DNA of 64,000 bases from an uncultured Bacteroidales bacterium (GTDB lineage Bacteria > Bacteroidota > Bacteroidia > Bacteroidales > P3), in NCBI GenBank assembly GCA_905234695.1, contig CAJOHZ010000003.1, positions 62,001 through 126,000 of the forward strand, written 5' to 3'. The translations under genes were made by a program, and so were the position numbers. The notes below the pieces were generated by a model, which searched no databases, was not told the origin of the DNA, and saw only the letters and a program-made list of their open reading frames with translations. This document shows positions 40,807 to 63,658 of the stretch, one piece after another. Within the stretch, counting starts at the first letter, position 1, and every line of letters begins with the position of its first letter.

Positions 40807-43668
40807 TTAATAAAACATCACGGGGCCCACGAGTCCGGTGGGTGTGGTGGGGACTTTGCGTTTGATGACATAATGTTGGACCACCTTATCGTCCGTGAGG
40901 GTGTGGACGTAGTTATTAAGAGTGGTGGTAACCTTTATCTCTAAGGTGTTGTCGCCTGGATGGAGAAGGCCGCCCAGATTGCAGTAGCTTCGCTCGCCGT
41001 ACCACTTCACACCGCAGTCTGTGCCGTTCACCTTCAGCTCGCAGATGTCGTACACCTTGCCGAGGTCGATGCAATCAAGGCTCTCGGGGGTATAAGTGAC
41101 CCCTTGCAAGGTGTCCTCCGTCAAGCTGTCGAGATGGAAATAGGCGGTGTAAGTGATGGTGCCGGAGAAGTCTTTGAACTGGGTCTCGCGGAGGTCGCAC
41201 AATTGCTGCATCGAGGTGTCGCGCGTCCAGCCTTCAATGGCATGATGCAGCGTGAGGTGCCACTGCATGGGGATGGAGAAATAATGCTGGCCCTCGTTGT
41301 AGGCGGCTTCCCACACATGAACTCCTGCTGTGTCAGCAGTCGAACTTTTCTCGAAGAGAATGAAGAGACTCTCGGCGGGCGGGAGGTAAAGCCATGTGCC
41401 GCCGTCTTCAAGGGGTAGCCGTTGCTTCTCATCAGTGGCGGCGTTATAGACCCAGGCGGTGCGCCCTTGATAGATTTCTTTGGGGAAATGCAATGTGGTC
41501 GCCACGGCCTTGTCGAGGTGGGCATTGACGAAGAGGAAGATGTCGTCGCCACGGTCGTTTCTTCGAGACGTTGCTTGGCTCGGCAAAGAAAGCTCGCTTT
41601 CTTTGCTCTCGCTTCGTGCAACGTTGCGGTAGTGGTTCTGCAATAGGAAGCGGTCGGAATTCTCAATCTCTACAGCATGGGGCAGACGGTATTGCTGCTG
41701 CACCGTGCGGTACCAGTCGAGGTAATTGCGGTCGGGATGGTCGGGTACCGTTATAATTGAGAATTGAGAGTTTGCTCCACTGACGGTCGCCGACCTTTTG
41801 CTGAAAGATGAAAGCTGATTGCTATCTATGGTGTTGTCTATTACCAGGAGAGCTTTATAGGCTTTGTCACCAACGATAAGTTTATTATCCAAAAGCGTCG
41901 CCGATTGCAGCTGGCGCGAAGTGATGAGGTCGCAGTTGCCACCGTTCTTATGTACCGCCTCCCACAGCAGATAAGGAATATCGTATGGGCTTCCCTTGGG
42001 GTAATATGGGAAAGGCTCTGTCTGCACGCCATAGTATGCCCATAAGCTGTCGACGGGAAGCACGACGGCAATGTCGGTCTGCATCTCGGCATTCTGGAGC
42101 AGGGCGCTCATGCGGGCACGGTATTCGTTAAGGAGGTGGAAGTAGGGCCACCAGGTGTTCTTCTCGTTGAGGTAGCTGCCGTACTGCACCCAGCCGGGGA
42201 AACCCGCCTCGGGGGGCGAGTAATTGAAGCCGTGCCAAACGGAGTGGGTGATACCGCTGAAGGCACTCATGTCGCTGCCCAGCTTGAGTAGTTCAAGGGT
42301 GGTCTCGAACATGCGGTAGGTATTGGTCATCTCCTCACAACTCACGATACGTTTCCCGCTCTGGTGGGCGGCAGAGCTGACACATTTGTTAATCATCGTG
42401 TAGGCGCGGCCGCGGCGGTAGTCGCTGTCGGGCATCTCCTCGCCCACGCGGTGGCGCAGGTAGTTGGTGGTCCAGCTCTCCCCCTCGGGGATGTCGTAGG
42501 CCGTGGAACTCAGCAGGGGGAAGAACCCACGCCCGTAGGCCTGTCCGCGCGACTGCACACCCTGCGCACGGCACCAGTCGGCAAAGACCGTGGAGAATCG
42601 TTCGTAGAGCAGTTCCGCCTTGGTGCGTTCGAAGTCAAGACGTACCTGCCGCACTTTCCGCTTGAAGTCGGGTGACTGCTTGGCACCATACTCATAACTC
42701 AGTACCTCACCCAGCCGCCCTGTTTTGAACATGGTGAAAGGCAACCACGGCATAAGGTCATAACCGTTGCGGCGACGGAACTCCTCGGCGAAGTCGCCCG
42801 TCCAGTTGGACCCTTCCAACTCCATACTGTCGACGAAATAGGACCGCAGCCAGTTGCGCATAGGCCCAAGACGCCCCTCCAGCGTGCGCTGAGTATGGAG
42901 GAGGTAGTGCCGCACCGCCTCGGCGTTCATGTGGTCAAGGATAGGCCCCGATGCCCCAGGGGCGCCATTGATGACCGAGGCAAACGAGGTGCAACGGACA
43001 AGAGCGTAAAGGTGAGAGGTGAGAGATGAGAGATGAGAGACGGGTGAGATGCTTATTGTGTCGCCTTGAGGGACGTGAAGGTTGTAACGTTGATTAATAT
43101 CGCTCACCGAGTCCGGCACCATGAAGATGTCGACCAGTTCAAACTGTCGGTCGGCATTAGCTTCCGTCACCTTGGGGTCGACAGCCTCAAATATCTGCTG
43201 CTTGGTGATGACGAAAGGTTTGCCCTCGGACCAGTCGACTTCTGTGACGTAAGTCAGCATCACCTGTGCACGATCCCCCATGGGGAGGGATTCCATGCCG
43301 AAAGGCCAGCCGCTACCCACCAACAGGTCACAGCCCATACCGAGACTTTTCGCCTCCTTCAGTACCACCTCCAGCATATCCAGCCATTCCTCACTCATCC
43401 AGGTCAAGGAAGGTTTGCCGAGGTCGTCACAACGTTTGGAGGGAAACTCGATGGGGTTGATTTCCACGCCGCCGATACCCGCCTCGTGGAGCACATGCAA
43501 CTCGCGTATCAACTCGGCACGCTCCACCTTGTCGCCATTCCACCACCACCGCACCCACGGCCTGCAACTGTCATCGACACGAGAGGTCGGCTCTACCATG
43601 GTAGCCTGTCCCCACATGGGCAGCGCTGCAACAAGCAGCATCAACCCGACAATCAGCCACTTTTTCAT
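40807..43668 (-). CDS. GH106 alpha-L-rhamnosidase
   Basis: Secreted enzyme (signal peptide MKKWLIVGLMLLVAALPMWG, QA) of family GH106, which releases alpha-L-rhamnose from pectic side chains. The family N-terminus is VRWWWNGDKVERAELIREL with GIGGVEINPIEFP (~40-80). Later blocks include LLVGSGWPFG, LEGRLGPMRNWLRSYFVDS and RIVSCEEMTNTYRMFETTLE. The C-terminal galactose-binding-like domain ends with YCNLGGLLHPGDNTLEIKVT. Unusual: three translated repeat insertions. Two are 7-bp repeat tracts (about residues 209-220 and 632-639); the third is a palindromic element (about 681-703, read RSESKESELSLPSQATSRR). All keep the frame. Length 953 aa. Confidence 0.92.
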   Translation of the reverse strand: MKKWLIVGLMLLVAALPMWGQATMVEPTSRVDDSCRPWVRWWWNGDKVERAELIRELHVLHEAGIGGVEINPIEFPSKRCDDLGKPSLTWMSEEWLDMLEVVLKEAKSLGMGCDLLVGSGWPFGMESLPMGDRAQVMLTYVTEVDWSEGKPFVITKQQIFEAVDPKVTEANADRQFELVDIFMVPDSVSDINQRYNLHVPQGDTISISPVSHLSSLTSHLYALVRCTSFASVINGAPGASGPILDHMNAEAVRHYLLHTQRTLEGRLGPMRNWLRSYFVDSMELEGSNWTGDFAEEFRRRNGYDLMPWLPFTMFKTGRLGEVLSYEYGAKQSPDFKRKVRQVRLDFERTKAELLYERFSTVFADWCRAQGVQSRGQAYGRGFFPLLSSTAYDIPEGESWTTNYLRHRVGEEMPDSDYRRGRAYTMINKCVSSAAHQSGKRIVSCEEMTNTYRMFETTLELLKLGSDMSAFSGITHSVWHGFNYSPPEAGFPGWVQYGSYLNEKNTWWPYFHLLNEYRARMSALLQNAEMQTDIAVVLPVDSLWAYYGVQTEPFPYYPKGSPYDIPYLLWEAVHKNGGNCDLITSRQLQSATLLDNKLIVGDKAYKALLVIDNTIDSNQLSSFSKRSATVSGANSQFSIITVPDHPDRNYLDWYRTVQQQYRLPHAVEIENSDRFLLQNHYRNVARSESKESELSLPSQATSRRNDRGDDIFLFVNAHLDKAVATTLHFPKEIYQGRTAWVYNAATDEKQRLPLEDGGTWLYLPPAESLFILFEKSSTADTAGVHVWEAAYNEGQHYFSIPMQWHLTLHHAIEGWTRDTSMQQLCDLRETQFKDFSGTITYTAYFHLDSLTEDTLQGVTYTPESLDCIDLGKVYDICELKVNGTDCGVKWYGERSYCNLGGLLHPGDNTLEIKVTTTLNNYVHTLTDDKVVQHYVIKRKVPTTPTGLVGPVMFY
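41561..41626. repeat. Palindromic element, copy A, inside the GH106 coding sequence
   Basis: A 66-bp imperfect palindrome. Outer arms: ACGTTGC at 41568-41574 and GCAACGT at 41618-41624. Inner arms: GCAAAGAAAG (41583-41592) and CTTTCTTTGC (41597-41606), with a 4-nt loop. On the minus strand it aligns along its whole length with 62763-62830, sharing CAACGTT, AGCGAG, AAGAAAG, AGCCAA, AACGTC and CGAAG blocks in order. Confidence 0.75.
41754..41774. repeat. 7-bp repeat tract inside GH106
   Basis: Three units (TAATTGA, GAATTGA, GAGTTTG) in phase. The minus strand encodes NSQFSII of the GH106 protein here. The tract has the same A/T/G-rich wording as the arrays at gene junctions. Confidence 0.6.
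43010..43044. repeat. 7-bp repeat tract inside GH106
   Basis: Five units: two AGGTGAG, two AGATGAG and one AGACGGG. The minus strand reads through them as a Ser/His/Leu tract (SHLSSLTSHL) in the GH106 protein, so the insertion is in frame. Confidence 0.8.
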
Positions 43669-59824: not shown

Positions 59825-59899
59825 GGGAGTATAGCTCAGTCGGTTCAGAGCATTTGCCTTACAAGCAAAGGGTCATTGGTTCGAATCCAATTACTCCCA
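59825..59899 (+). tRNA. tRNA-Val (anticodon UAC)
   Basis: A 75-nt cloverleaf: acceptor GGGAGTA / TACTCCC, D arm GCTC...GAGC, anticodon stem TTTGC / GCAAA with loop CTTACAA (anticodon TAC), T arm ATTGG TTCGAAT CCAAT. CCA is not encoded. A perfect hairpin follows at once. Confidence 0.96.
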
Positions 59900-59902
59900 C
59901 CC

Positions 59903-59944
59903 GATAAAAGAAACAGCAGGCCATGGCCTGCTGTTTCTTTTATC
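59903..59944. terminator. Perfect bidirectional terminator between tRNA-Val and the ABC exporter
   Basis: A 42-bp perfect palindrome: two 20-bp arms around a central AT, core GCAGGCC-AT-GGCCTGC, with AAAAG and CTTTT runs outside. It begins 3 bp after the tRNA and contains the TAA stop (59940-59942) of the convergent exporter gene. Confidence 0.93.
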
Positions 59945-61809: not shown

Positions 61810-62745
61810 TCAGAGTTTCGCGGGGTCAATATAGAAATTGGCCTCGGGCCCATTGCAGGGCGACGAGCAGCGGATGGCGCACTCGTCACACGAGGGCATC
61901 AACTCGCCGTGGAGACGTTTCTTCACCATGTCGCCCACAGCGTCACGGAGACTGTCAACGGCGATTGTGCGTATCACCTCGTCGCAGAAGGCATAACTGA
62001 GCATCGTTATGGCAACACGTTCGGGGATGCCGCGGGAACGGAGGTAGAAGAGCGCCTGCTCGTCTAGTTGGCCGATAGTGCTGCCATGCGAGCACTTCAC
62101 ATCGTCGTTGTATATTTCGAGGAAGGGACGGGTGTCGACATGCGCCTTATCGGTGAGGAGAATATTGCGGTTGGTCATGAAAGCCTCGGTTTTGACAGCG
62201 CCGTCCTGCACGAGCACATGCCCGTTGAAACGCGCACGTGCCGAGTCGTCCACAATACCCTTGTAAAGTTCGTGGCTGGTGCAGTGGGGCTCGGCATGTT
62301 CGACAAAGATGTAGTTGTCGCACTCCTGCTCACGGTCGACGAGGTAAAGGCCGTTGGCCTCCACATGGCAGTGTTCCCCTTTCATACGCACGACCACATT
62401 GTTGCGCACATGTCCACCACCGAGGGTAACGGTGCAGAGGTTGAGGGAAGCACCCGCATGCAGAGTTACATCAAGGTCGGTGAGGTGCATCTGCGGTGTG
62501 TTCATGCCTTGGAGGCGGTAGAGTTCCAACGCGGCCCCCTCCTCTATGTCAATGTGAAGGTTCTCGCTGTCGGGAGAGGCGGTATAGCCGCCCTCGGAGG
62601 AAATCATGAACATGGGCCAGTCGGCAGGGTTGCTCAGCACCATGCGCGAGGGGCTGTCGCCTCGCGTAATACGCAAGGTTCGGGACTCGGCAGTGCCGCT
62701 CCAGCGGTCATTCCAAATATCGGGCAATTGGTCTTTCCTAATCAT
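61810..62745 (-). CDS. sufD: SufD, Fe-S scaffold subunit, with a Cys-rich tail
   Basis: Partner of SufB and SufC in the SUF scaffold. The beta-helix core matches SufB/SufD: LHIDIEEGAALELYRLQG, LHAGASLNLCTVTLGGGHVR, ARFNGHVLVQDGAVKTEAFM, DTRPFLEIYNDDVKCSHGST, IGQLDEQALFYLRSRGIPER. Start at ATG 62745 (311 aa), shorter than many SufD because the N-terminal domain is reduced. Odd: after the core the protein ends MPSCDECAIRCSSPCNGP, four cysteines in 12 residues, which could bind a metal or cluster (inference). sufC lies upstream with a 92-bp gap that holds a palindromic element and 7-bp repeats; sufB is not in the window. Confidence 0.9.
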   Translation of the reverse strand: MIRKDQLPDIWNDRWSGTAESRTLRITRGDSPSRMVLSNPADWPMFMISSEGGYTASPDSENLHIDIEEGAALELYRLQGMNTPQMHLTDLDVTLHAGASLNLCTVTLGGGHVRNNVVVRMKGEHCHVEANGLYLVDREQECDNYIFVEHAEPHCTSHELYKGIVDDSARARFNGHVLVQDGAVKTEAFMTNRNILLTDKAHVDTRPFLEIYNDDVKCSHGSTIGQLDEQALFYLRSRGIPERVAITMLSYAFCDEVIRTIAVDSLRDAVGDMVKKRLHGELMPSCDECAIRCSSPCNGPEANFYIDPAKL

Positions 62746-62769
62746 TCTCAAGTCTCAATTTTCAACGTT
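62742..62769. repeat. 7-bp repeat tract over the sufD start
   Basis: Units TCATTCT, CAAGTCT, CAATTTT and CAACGTT in phase. The sufD ATG (complement of 62743-62745) lies in the first unit. The last unit merges into the palindromic element that starts at 62763. Confidence 0.65.
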
Positions 62770-62830
62770 TCGCAAAGCGAGCACATAAGAAAGTTGTTCA
62801 TTATGCCAAGCCAAAGAAACGTCAACGAAG
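62763..62830. repeat. Palindromic element, copy B, between sufC and sufD
   Basis: A 68-bp element that aligns end to end with copy A (41561-41626, minus strand). Outer arms: ACGTTTC (62765-62771) and GAAACGT (62816-62822). Inner stem: CATAAGAA (62784-62791) with TTC-A-TTATG (62797-62805), one bulged A. Arm bases differ from copy A, but pairing is kept. The internal-loop blocks AAGCGAG and GCC(A/G)AGCCAA are shared by both copies. Confidence 0.75.
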
Positions 62831-62850
62831 TTAATTTTCAATTCCCCAAC
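62831..62850. repeat. 7-bp repeat tract over the sufC stop
   Basis: TTAATTT, TCAATTC and a degenerate third unit. On the coding strand it reads GGGGAAT-TGAAAAT-TAA, with the sufC TGA stop (62838-62840) inside it, as at the GH92 stop. Confidence 0.55.
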
Positions 62851-63596
62851 TCCTCCTTAATCCACTCGTAGCCGCGCTGTTCCAGGTCGAGTGCCAACTC
62901 CTTGGGACCGGTCTTGACGATGCGGCCTTCGTAAAGCACGTGCACAAAGTCGGGCACGATATAGTCCAGCAGCCGCTGATAGTGGGTAATTACCACGATT
63001 GCGTTCTCAGTGCTACGCAGCTTGTTAACCCCCGAAGCCACGACACGAAGGGCATCGATATCGAGTCCCGAATCGGTCTCGTCGAGGATAGCTAGCGTGG
63101 GATCGAGCATCGCCATCTGAAAAATTTCGTTCTTTTTCTTCTCGCCGCCACTGAAACCCTCATTCACCGAACGATTGGCCAACGTGGCGGTCATCTCCAC
63201 CACCTTCTTCTTTTCCTCCATCAGTTTGACAAACTCGGCGCCCGAAAGCGGGTCAAGGCCGCGATATTTGCGCTGCTCGTTGACGGCGGTCCGCATGAAA
63301 TTGGTGATGCTCACCCCGGGAATCTCCACTGGGTACTGGAAGCCAAGGAATATCCCTTCGGCAGCACGCACATCCACCGGCATCTCCAGGATGTTCTTGC
63401 CTTTGTATATCACCTCGCCCTCGGTGACGGTGTACTTGCTGTTGCCGGCAATCACGCCCGCCAGGGTGCTTTTCCCGTTGCCGTTGGGACCCATGATGGA
63501 ATGTACTTCGCCGTAATCCACCTCCAGGTTGACCCCTTTCAGAATCTCCCGGTCGCCGATGGAAGCGTGTAAATTGCGTATAGACAGTAATGCCAT
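62838..63596 (-). CDS. sufC: SufC, ATPase of the SUF Fe-S assembly complex
   Basis: ABC-type ATPase that drives the SufBCD scaffold. Walker A is IMGPNGNGKSTLAGVIAG (~34-51), the Q-loop lies in IFLGFQYPVEIPGVSITNFM (~81-100), the signature is FSGGEKKKNEIFQMAML (~147-163) and Walker B is LAILDETDSGLDIDAL. The sequence SGGEKKKNEI is specific to SufC. ATG 63596 chosen (252 aa). It is divergent from the SAM adenosyltransferase gene. The usual upstream sufB is absent, so the suf genes are split: sufCD here, sufE and a sufT-like gene at 55.4-56.2 kb. Confidence 0.95.
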   Translation of the reverse strand: MALLSIRNLHASIGDREILKGVNLEVDYGEVHSIMGPNGNGKSTLAGVIAGNSKYTVTEGEVIYKGKNILEMPVDVRAAEGIFLGFQYPVEIPGVSITNFMRTAVNEQRKYRGLDPLSGAEFVKLMEEKKKVVEMTATLANRSVNEGFSGGEKKKNEIFQMAMLDPTLAILDETDSGLDIDALRVVASGVNKLRSTENAIVVITHYQRLLDYIVPDFVHVLYEGRIVKTGPKELALDLEQRGYEWIKEELGN

Positions 63597-63658
63597 ATTA
63601 TCTATAAATAATTGATTCAACAAATATTACAATGCTCACCCAAAAGCAAACATCTGTA

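Follow-up and report, generated by a model that had tools for sequence, protein, structure and literature searches.

A dispersed family of folded palindromic units, read through in frame within unrelated genes of Bacteroidales

Rickettsia and Wolbachia provide the best-known examples of protein-inserting palindromes, and the question of what moves these sequences is an old one. The Wolbachia palindromic elements are said to be of the same kind as the Rickettsia palindromic elements (RPE), and the SDR of Nostoc, which Elhai et al. are said to have described in 2008, are reportedly tiny (21–27 nt), conserved in structure, often found in heptad arrays or minitransposons, and nested or in tandem. 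Here, we describe a palindromic unit located within a gene for a GH106 alpha-L-rhamnosidase, with a relative between two genes elsewhere, in a window of 64,000 nucleotides from an uncultured Bacteroidales bacterium (GenBank assembly GCA_905234695.1, contig CAJOHZ010000003.1, positions 62,001 to 126,000 of the forward strand). The window denotes this whole stretch, and its genome (G000) has a size of 2.47 Mb in 70 contigs and is 96.8% complete.

The RPE are described (PMC2229807) as palindromic and dispersed stem-loops of 105–146 bp that lie between genes and in frame within unrelated conserved genes, and their mover is unknown. Repetitive extragenic palindromes (REP) of the CGTC families have stems of 8–9 bp, loops of 4–5 nt and a fixed tag (PMC3733652), while the hairpin or cruciform of diversity-generating retroelements (DGRs) is described in PMC3240598 as a simple, GC-rich stem of 7–10 bp with a GRNA loop, located downstream of the variable repeat. 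The unit in the window has a different architecture: it is 66–75 nt long in the family as a whole and consists of a long hairpin (hairpin I), in which a conserved tandem G·A lies between an outer stem of 7 bp and an inner stem that varies, and of a mini-hairpin (hairpin II) of about 3 bp with a GNA-type loop, which follows it. We interpret the family as small non-autonomous mobile elements, each of which is a folded two-hairpin unit, and we assign a probability of roughly two in three to this interpretation.

A sequence-only reading of the window had aligned two sequences end to end, here called copies A and B. They align over their full length, A as the minus strand and B as the plus strand, and the outer stems ACGTTGC/GCAACGT and ACGTTTC/GAAACGT, the altered inner stems and the common blocks AGCGAG and AGCCAA agree with the earlier description. 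Copy A had been placed at positions 41561–41626 and at residues ~681–703 of the protein, which is corrected here to an exact insertion at 41560–41625, residues 682–703. We add to the earlier description that A and B are on opposite strands, that the fold includes a mini-hairpin and a tandem G·A, and that the family is spread throughout the order. The features are as follows.

40807..43668, minus strand: gene for a GH106 alpha-L-rhamnosidase of 953 aa, host of copy A (PF17132, E = 5.1e-40)
41560..41625, minus strand: copy A, the whole inserted unit, 66 nt or 22 residues (682–703 of GH106), as delimited by the empty site and the relatives
41568..41624, minus strand: hairpin I of copy A, with outer stem arms at 41618–41624 and 41568–41574, a tandem G·A and the inner stem GCAAAGAAAG/CTTTCTTTGC
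41560..41567, minus strand: mini-hairpin II of copy A, decayed, TC-GAA-GA with 2 bp left (row L017)
about 62764..62832, plus strand: copy B, hairpin I and mini-hairpin AAC-GAA-GTT, between two genes (covariance match G000:C3:124762-124835)

Copies A and B are members of a dispersed element family that is larger than the sequence-only reading had stated. With copy A as the query, other copies were recovered from its own genome at E = 2.7e-9, 1.7e-5 and 0.009. A covariance model built from five copies (R1) gave 12 matches in this genome at E up to 10, and a model built from 41 copies of the genus (R2) gave 13 matches at E up to 1e-4; a covariance search for further copies, which the earlier reading had proposed, was thus positive. 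Six of the 13 copies are in frame inside open reading frames (ORFs) with Pfam matches (GH106, QueA, LpxB, DDE transposase, PrmA and TruB), all in the sense direction of the element and in two frames, of which one (VSQSE...NVNEV) was found in QueA, PrmA, GH106 and the transposase and the other (HKASAEG...ETSTK) in LpxB and TruB. The transposase ORF is shortened, with 234 codons as compared to about 354 in relatives without the insert. One copy overlaps the final codons of yebC, another the initial bases of tRNA-Arg, and four are outside recognised genes (copy B, contig C47, contig C2 and C3:59351). The copy on contig C37 (L392) was dropped as an in-frame copy in pyruvate oxidoreductase, its ORF having 165 aa and no Pfam match; the end of this ORF presumably resembles an orphan oxidoreductase C-terminus.

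Copy A had been described as being read through as residues of the GH106 protein, and it is indeed an exact in-frame insertion of 66 nt and 22 residues. The 22 residues are missing from all 16 aligned GH106 relatives, which represent 16 of the 19 other fetched loci (L314, L323 and L325 were excluded as broken or split). At the DNA level, 7 of 9 relatives have a common empty site, CGC|AACGACCG, which reads CGCAACGACCG, and the GH106 gene in the window has the 66-nt unit between CGC and AACGACCG and no other foreign sequence. The alignment of homologues suggested earlier to see whether they share these residues therefore came out in favour of an insertion, both in the proteins and in the DNA. 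The insertion can be slid by 4 nt, with AACG at both ends. Two relatives without the 22 residues (L313 and L321) contain other inserts just past the site.

Additional repeats were observed within the GH106 frame. Tandem repeats of 7 nt are located at window positions 41755–41769 and 43013–43040 (residues about 634–638 and 210–219). The heptads AATTGAG, TGAGAGA and ATTCTCA occur in the GH106 frame or beside copy B, and the relatives differ in length and repeats there; such heptads possibly constitute another type of insertion that keeps the frame. An inverted repeat, GGTCG-G-CGACC (window about 41785–41795), lies within seven GH106 residues near KRSATVSG, which are extra as compared to most relatives in the alignment and represent a second, different palindromic insert.

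The R1 searches gave 153 matches (64 + 89; contigs may recur), which were trimmed by hand and by script to 107 copies. The 106 copies of at least 64 nt (the short L100 was excluded) yielded 51 representatives, of which 41 were used for the pair count and for R2, while ten were set aside as odd or degraded (L020, L042, L047, L064, L083, L112, L117, L123, L126 and L130). When the 41 copies were aligned by sequence (alignment A5), 90.1% of the 943 cells of the named 23-pair structure were paired. Two-sided changes occurred in 19 of the 23 pairs and in 124 cells (shuffled mean 39.6), a control that overstates the excess because the copies are related. Covariation was 0.374, as compared to 0.154 in shuffled alignments and 0.042–0.068 in slid structures, the latter control being handicapped from the start because the structure was read from these same copies. 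All 51 representatives gave the same picture, with 91.0% of 1155 cells paired and two-sided change in 20 of the 23 pairs. The compensatory change that the sequence-only reading had noted between two copies thus extends to the 41 copies, under two controls, and likewise to all representatives. The outer stem was 96.2% paired, and its variants (ACGTTGC, ACGTTTC, ACATTGC, ACCATGC, ACCCTGC and others) were almost always matched; in the short middle helix, GC/GC is swapped for other pairs among copies, and the tandem G·A was present in 37 of 41 copies. The mini-hairpin follows directly after hairpin I with the pattern NNN-GNA-N'N'N' (e.g., AAC-GAA-GTT, AGC-GAA-GCT, ATG-GAA-CAT), and at least 3 bp around the GNA loop were found in 29 of the 51 representatives, whereas 1000 shuffles gave 1.4 on average and never more than 6. 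As judged from these alignments, the fold is kept by paired changes, and the predicted family fold is unusually well supported.

Cells with G·T outnumbered those with A·C by 41 to 24 in A5, by 52 to 27 in the 51 representatives and by 31 to 15 in A6, an alignment of copies from across the order that had been obtained by fitting to the model. This excess is consistent with, and favours without proving, a fold of the sense-strand RNA. The representatives had on average 3.31 open frames out of 6, as compared to 2.51 in shuffled sequences (sd 0.13, highest of 300 = 2.94), an excess that counts as one family property because the representatives are related.

A known RNA family was rejected since no Rfam model fitted: with Rfam 15 (4227 models), the window gave only tRNA at the gathering level, and 16 loci gave only SSU rRNA at E up to 1. 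A kink-turn was rejected by eye because pairs flank the tandem G·A on both sides. An integron attC site was also rejected by eye, with the arm AAC/GTT in reverse order, and no search for an integrase was made.

Within genes, the unit contributes 22–25 residues without loss of frame; it does so in either orientation, and two of its reading frames are used. In total, 36 of the 107 copies are located in ORFs of 110 or more codons and have at least 25 codons on each side. An open frame alone was not taken as a gene, and 10 of 19 scanned candidate ORFs had no Pfam match and were not counted. Further carriers with Pfam matches include a BlaR1-type peptidase/TonB protein, DUF4143, DUF4248 and DUF5686, the latter in the antisense direction. 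In QueA and LpxB, the element was found in none of the 29 aligned relatives of each; L161 has a different insert at the QueA position, and L187, L199, L200 and L207 have other inserts in or near the LpxB loop. In L207, the LpxB of G002, the frame enters tandem HSSRNRFIT repeats at the same loop, and LpxB appears there in two pieces. In a structural model of QueA (mean pLDDT 79.3), the insert is a coil in the loop between strands 106–112 and 138–150, with residues 116–134 below pLDDT 50; as other parts of the model are also below 50, the result goes no further than the lack of a predicted fold in the insert. We do not favour translational bypass because the in-gene copies that were checked are open and keep the frame.

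The nearest element-free relative of the IS5-family transposase is 90% identical over 98% of the query, and 23 residues were present between H and K in 5 of 12 aligned proteins and absent from the other seven. This transposase lineage (P0001, P0002, P0004, L012 and L023) may spread the in-frame unit as a passenger. In a macro-domain gene, filled sites (L356, L357 and L359) and empty sites (L376, L358 and L361; ATG|AACGT) were both recovered. The number of 75-nt units in QueG varies, with three in tandem in G027, a single one in G021 and none in G017 and G018. Right behind the cysteine cluster of QueG (L326, L327 and L152), the in-frame units are accompanied by further short repeats.

A further set of loci (L107, L127 and L116) encodes oxidoreductase-like fragments, which we take to be pyruvate oxidoreductase. 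These are rearranged short ORFs (108, 218 and 253 aa), of which only L116 has a Pfam match (TPP_enzyme_C), and they were used for the insertion boundary alone. In L108 and L035, a copy bridges the beginning of a DUF4248-like gene and an oxidoreductase-like fragment, an arrangement that resembles the product of recombination between two copies.

The ends of the insertions were delimited where an empty site is known. The unit starts with AACGTT and ends with the mini-hairpin in GH106 (copy A, where the mini-hairpin is decayed), the macro-domain gene and the transposase, and it starts with ACCGTT in the oxidoreductase-like fragment (filled in L107 and L127, empty in L116). At these sites, the insertion and the fold have the same limits, and AA of the host follows. 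AA begins the host sequence behind the unit in all four sites and behind the last QueG unit and occupies the same columns in 28 of 41 copies, and 32 of 41 units also start with AA. Since the units mostly begin with AA, a duplication of 2 nt is indistinguishable from none. AACG (GH106) or AACGT (macro-domain gene) is found at the left end, and the right end has the same bases or one or two changes. The outer stem arms of a bare unit could act as inverted repeats, and the repeats at the ends measure only 2–5 nt.

A more specific scheme, which we regard as unlikely, is that of a guided mobile hairpin, in which the target DNA gives the 5' half of the outer stem, the 3' arm of the element pairs with it or is copied from it, and the stems record the choice of target. 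In yebC, the 5' arm ACATGGC fits 6 of the 7 bases required by the conserved ending HNMA, and this arm can be taken as host sequence because VFHNMA forms the C-terminus in 38 of the first 40 listed homologues. In QueG, the 5' arm is similar to Asn-His-Ala codons that are native to one relative without the unit, and AACGT in the macro-domain gene and AACG in GH106 are native. Against this scheme, the arm is not native in the transposase and in the oxidoreductase-like fragment. If true, insertion would be guided by RNA or single-stranded DNA, from a unit of ~70 nt that carries no protein of its own.

We compared the distribution of the unit among genomes at three levels, with stricter filters in the many-genome searches, which lose weak matches. 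With R1 and E up to 1e-3, the unit was recovered from 28 of 36 further congeneric genomes and from 1 of 24 genomes of other genera. R2, which was trained on the genus only, was positive in 72 of 392 other genomes from the order Bacteroidales, one of the same genus, and 48 of 206 sampled Bacteroidales genera were positive, counting the own one. In a phylum-wide draw, in which at least two genomes belong to the order, 1 of 295 other genomes was positive (G717, marked as the same class). This match (L386, 58.3 bits) is the sole one outside the order in that draw, a possible horizontal transfer. A strict core pattern matched 60 stretches in named species genomes, which were labelled Bacteroidales, Bacteroidetes, one Alistipes, one Prevotella and 'bacterium P3', many of them from ruminants. 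Carriage by viruses was rejected since this pattern, the only one used, had 0 matches in viral contigs.

The surroundings of the copies are varied, as exemplified by the neighbourhood of copy B.

61810..62751, minus strand: SufB/SufD-type gene, one flank of copy B (PF01458)
62744..62765, plus strand: heptad array ATTCTCA, 3.1 copies, directly adjoining copy B
62838..63623, minus strand: ABC ATPase gene, the other flank of copy B (PF00005), probably SufC-like by its neighbour

Heptads were also found at L026/L085, L099, L114 and L138, and tandem copies occur besides the gene, repeat and heptad settings. In G003, near-identical repeats of ~296 bp with the ends GGTAACCTCTAA/TTAGAGGTTACC contain the unit, as do other larger repeats in G030, G314, G260 and G069. 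In 3 of 40 regions outside the genus (L245, L246 and L247), the unit directly follows the variable end of a target gene and is flanked on its other side by an avd-like gene, and L244 is a fourth, less clear region of this DGR-like type. In L245, 28 of the 29 substitutions between the repeats are at template adenines, which identifies a DGR by the repeat test; we read the target genes in L246 and L247 as putative DGR targets. A general partnership with DGRs failed the wider test, with 37 of the 40 regions having no match to the reverse transcriptase or avd query taken from there. Elsewhere in the window, a perfect inverted repeat with 21-nt arms and no spacer (59903–59944) was observed just past a tRNA gene (59825–59899).

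The description of the family is firm, and we infer the way in which it moves. An enzyme acting in trans would move the unit, either as a folded RNA or as one strand of DNA; insertions would be lost where they disrupt needed genes, while those in permissive loops would persist. The module is also carried in larger MITE-like repeats and beside heptad arrays (MITE, miniature inverted-repeat transposable element). A RAYT (REP-associated tyrosine transposase) or a reverse transcriptase as the resident mover was rejected, as neither had a match in the own genome, and the mover could be a different transposase, an enzyme of the host or one whose activity lies in the past. Several observations weigh against mobile two-hairpin units. 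Transposition was not directly seen, and the two families searched for as movers, RAYT (PF01797) and reverse transcriptase (PF00078), had no match in the own genome. The majority of the copies (71 of 107) are outside any suitable ORF, and copies in several genomes lie within repeats of ~300 bp that could themselves move them. The mini-hairpin is often weak or absent, with 3 bp in 28 representatives, 5 bp in one, 2 bp in nine, 1 bp in two and none in 11. The G·T excess falls to 33 to 23 when two very variable pairs are left out, and the mini-hairpin has 8 to 8.

These larger repeats are the basis of another interpretation, which we consider improbable, namely that the hairpin is no more than a structural part of MITEs, as larger derivatives of DNA transposons that have terminal inverted repeats, and that bare copies in genes are remnants of them. 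The repeats of ~296 bp in G003 and those in the four other genomes do hold the unit, but the insertions in GH106, the macro-domain gene and the transposase consist of the bare unit with no other foreign sequence, and QueG contains bare tandem units. Moreover, the larger repeats vary in sequence between genomes, whereas the hairpin is common to them.

It is quite improbable that a RAYT (Y1) transposase moves the unit as a palindrome of the REP type. The units are palindromic, dispersed and partly in genes, as for REP, and a Y1 domain was found in 45 of the 61 genomes searched. However, there were 0 Y1 matches in the own genome despite its completeness of 96.8%, none in G006, G008, G014 and G017, which have 9–13 copies, and as many as six in G001, which has no copy. 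The sizes of the stem and the loops are also outside the REP classes described in PMC3733652.

For a host regulatory RNA or terminator that is occasionally captured by coding sequence, the odds are very low. Such an origin would fit the conserved fold and the many intergenic copies (the 71 of 107 outside suitable ORFs), but no Rfam model matches, the positions of the copies vary by species, and the exact insertions are in unrelated genes and in both orientations. Equally slight is the chance that the paired changes result from a mutation process rather than from selection on the fold. Quasi-palindrome correction is a known process that makes arms match. It would erase mismatches, and the persisting G·A in 37 of 41 copies therefore counts against it, as does the GNA loop of the mini-hairpin, which is kept while the stem changes. 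Derivation from or movement by DGRs, as the hairpin downstream of the variable repeat that homing requires according to PMC3240598, is extremely improbable: it is suggested by the placement in L245, L246, L247 and less clearly L244 and by the adenine-directed substitutions in L245 (28 of 29), but neither the reverse transcriptase nor the avd query from these regions had a match in 37 of 40 regions, two of the three matches to avd share 98% identity over 60 residues and are hence hardly independent, the own genome has no PF00078 match, and the hairpins described for DGRs are simple stems of 7–10 bp with 4-nt loops.

The interpretation as mobile two-hairpin units thus brings a family comparable to the protein-inserting palindromes, with a clear and testable fold, to many Bacteroidales genera, where exact empty sites and differences in tandem copy number between related species were found. 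The insertions hit the core enzymes LpxB, QueA, TruB and PrmA. With the fold, the empty sites and these core-enzyme insertions, two old questions become open to experiment, namely how such elements move and what effect the extra residues have on the host enzymes.

We finally compared the family to the known systems; in the literature searched, with incomplete coverage of journals, this element family was not described. Like the SDR of Nostoc, the unit occurs beside heptads and within repeats of ~296 bp, but as compared to the 21–27 nt reported for the cyanobacterial elements it is about three times longer, has another fold and enters proteins. The unit was found at the place of the DGR hairpin in three regions, whereas most of the 40 regions outside the genus do not suggest a DGR hairpin in general. 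As for the CGTC and GTAG families of REP (PMC3733652), the units are short palindromes, some of them in genes, and CGTC stands at the end of the stem in 24 of 41 copies. Unlike these families, there is no fixed tag, as CGT changes together with its pairing partners (TGTC in 7, GGTC in 3, and others), and the stem of 5–13 bp with a single loop is replaced by a longer fold of two hairpins with internal loops. Bacterial MITEs such as Correia/NEMIS, ERIC and RUP are also non-autonomous, and some are fused in frame to genes (PMC2229807); the bare gene copies may differ from them, showing no terminal inverted repeats beyond the fold and an end repeat of at most 2–5 nt. The sequence-only reading had likened the unit to the RPE, and this likeness holds for behaviour but not for size and fold. 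By the description of the RPE in the same source (PMC2229807), both are palindromic and dispersed, between genes and in frame in unrelated genes, and in GH106, QueA, LpxB, the transposase and the macro-domain gene we found a dispersed palindrome in frame that is absent from homologues. The unit is set apart from the RPE of 105–146 bp in that description by its length of 66–75 nt, its tandem G·A, its GNA mini-hairpin and its occurrence in Bacteroidales. The family belongs to a known kind, that of small mobile palindromes entering proteins, and is a new one from outside the groups in which this kind is known.

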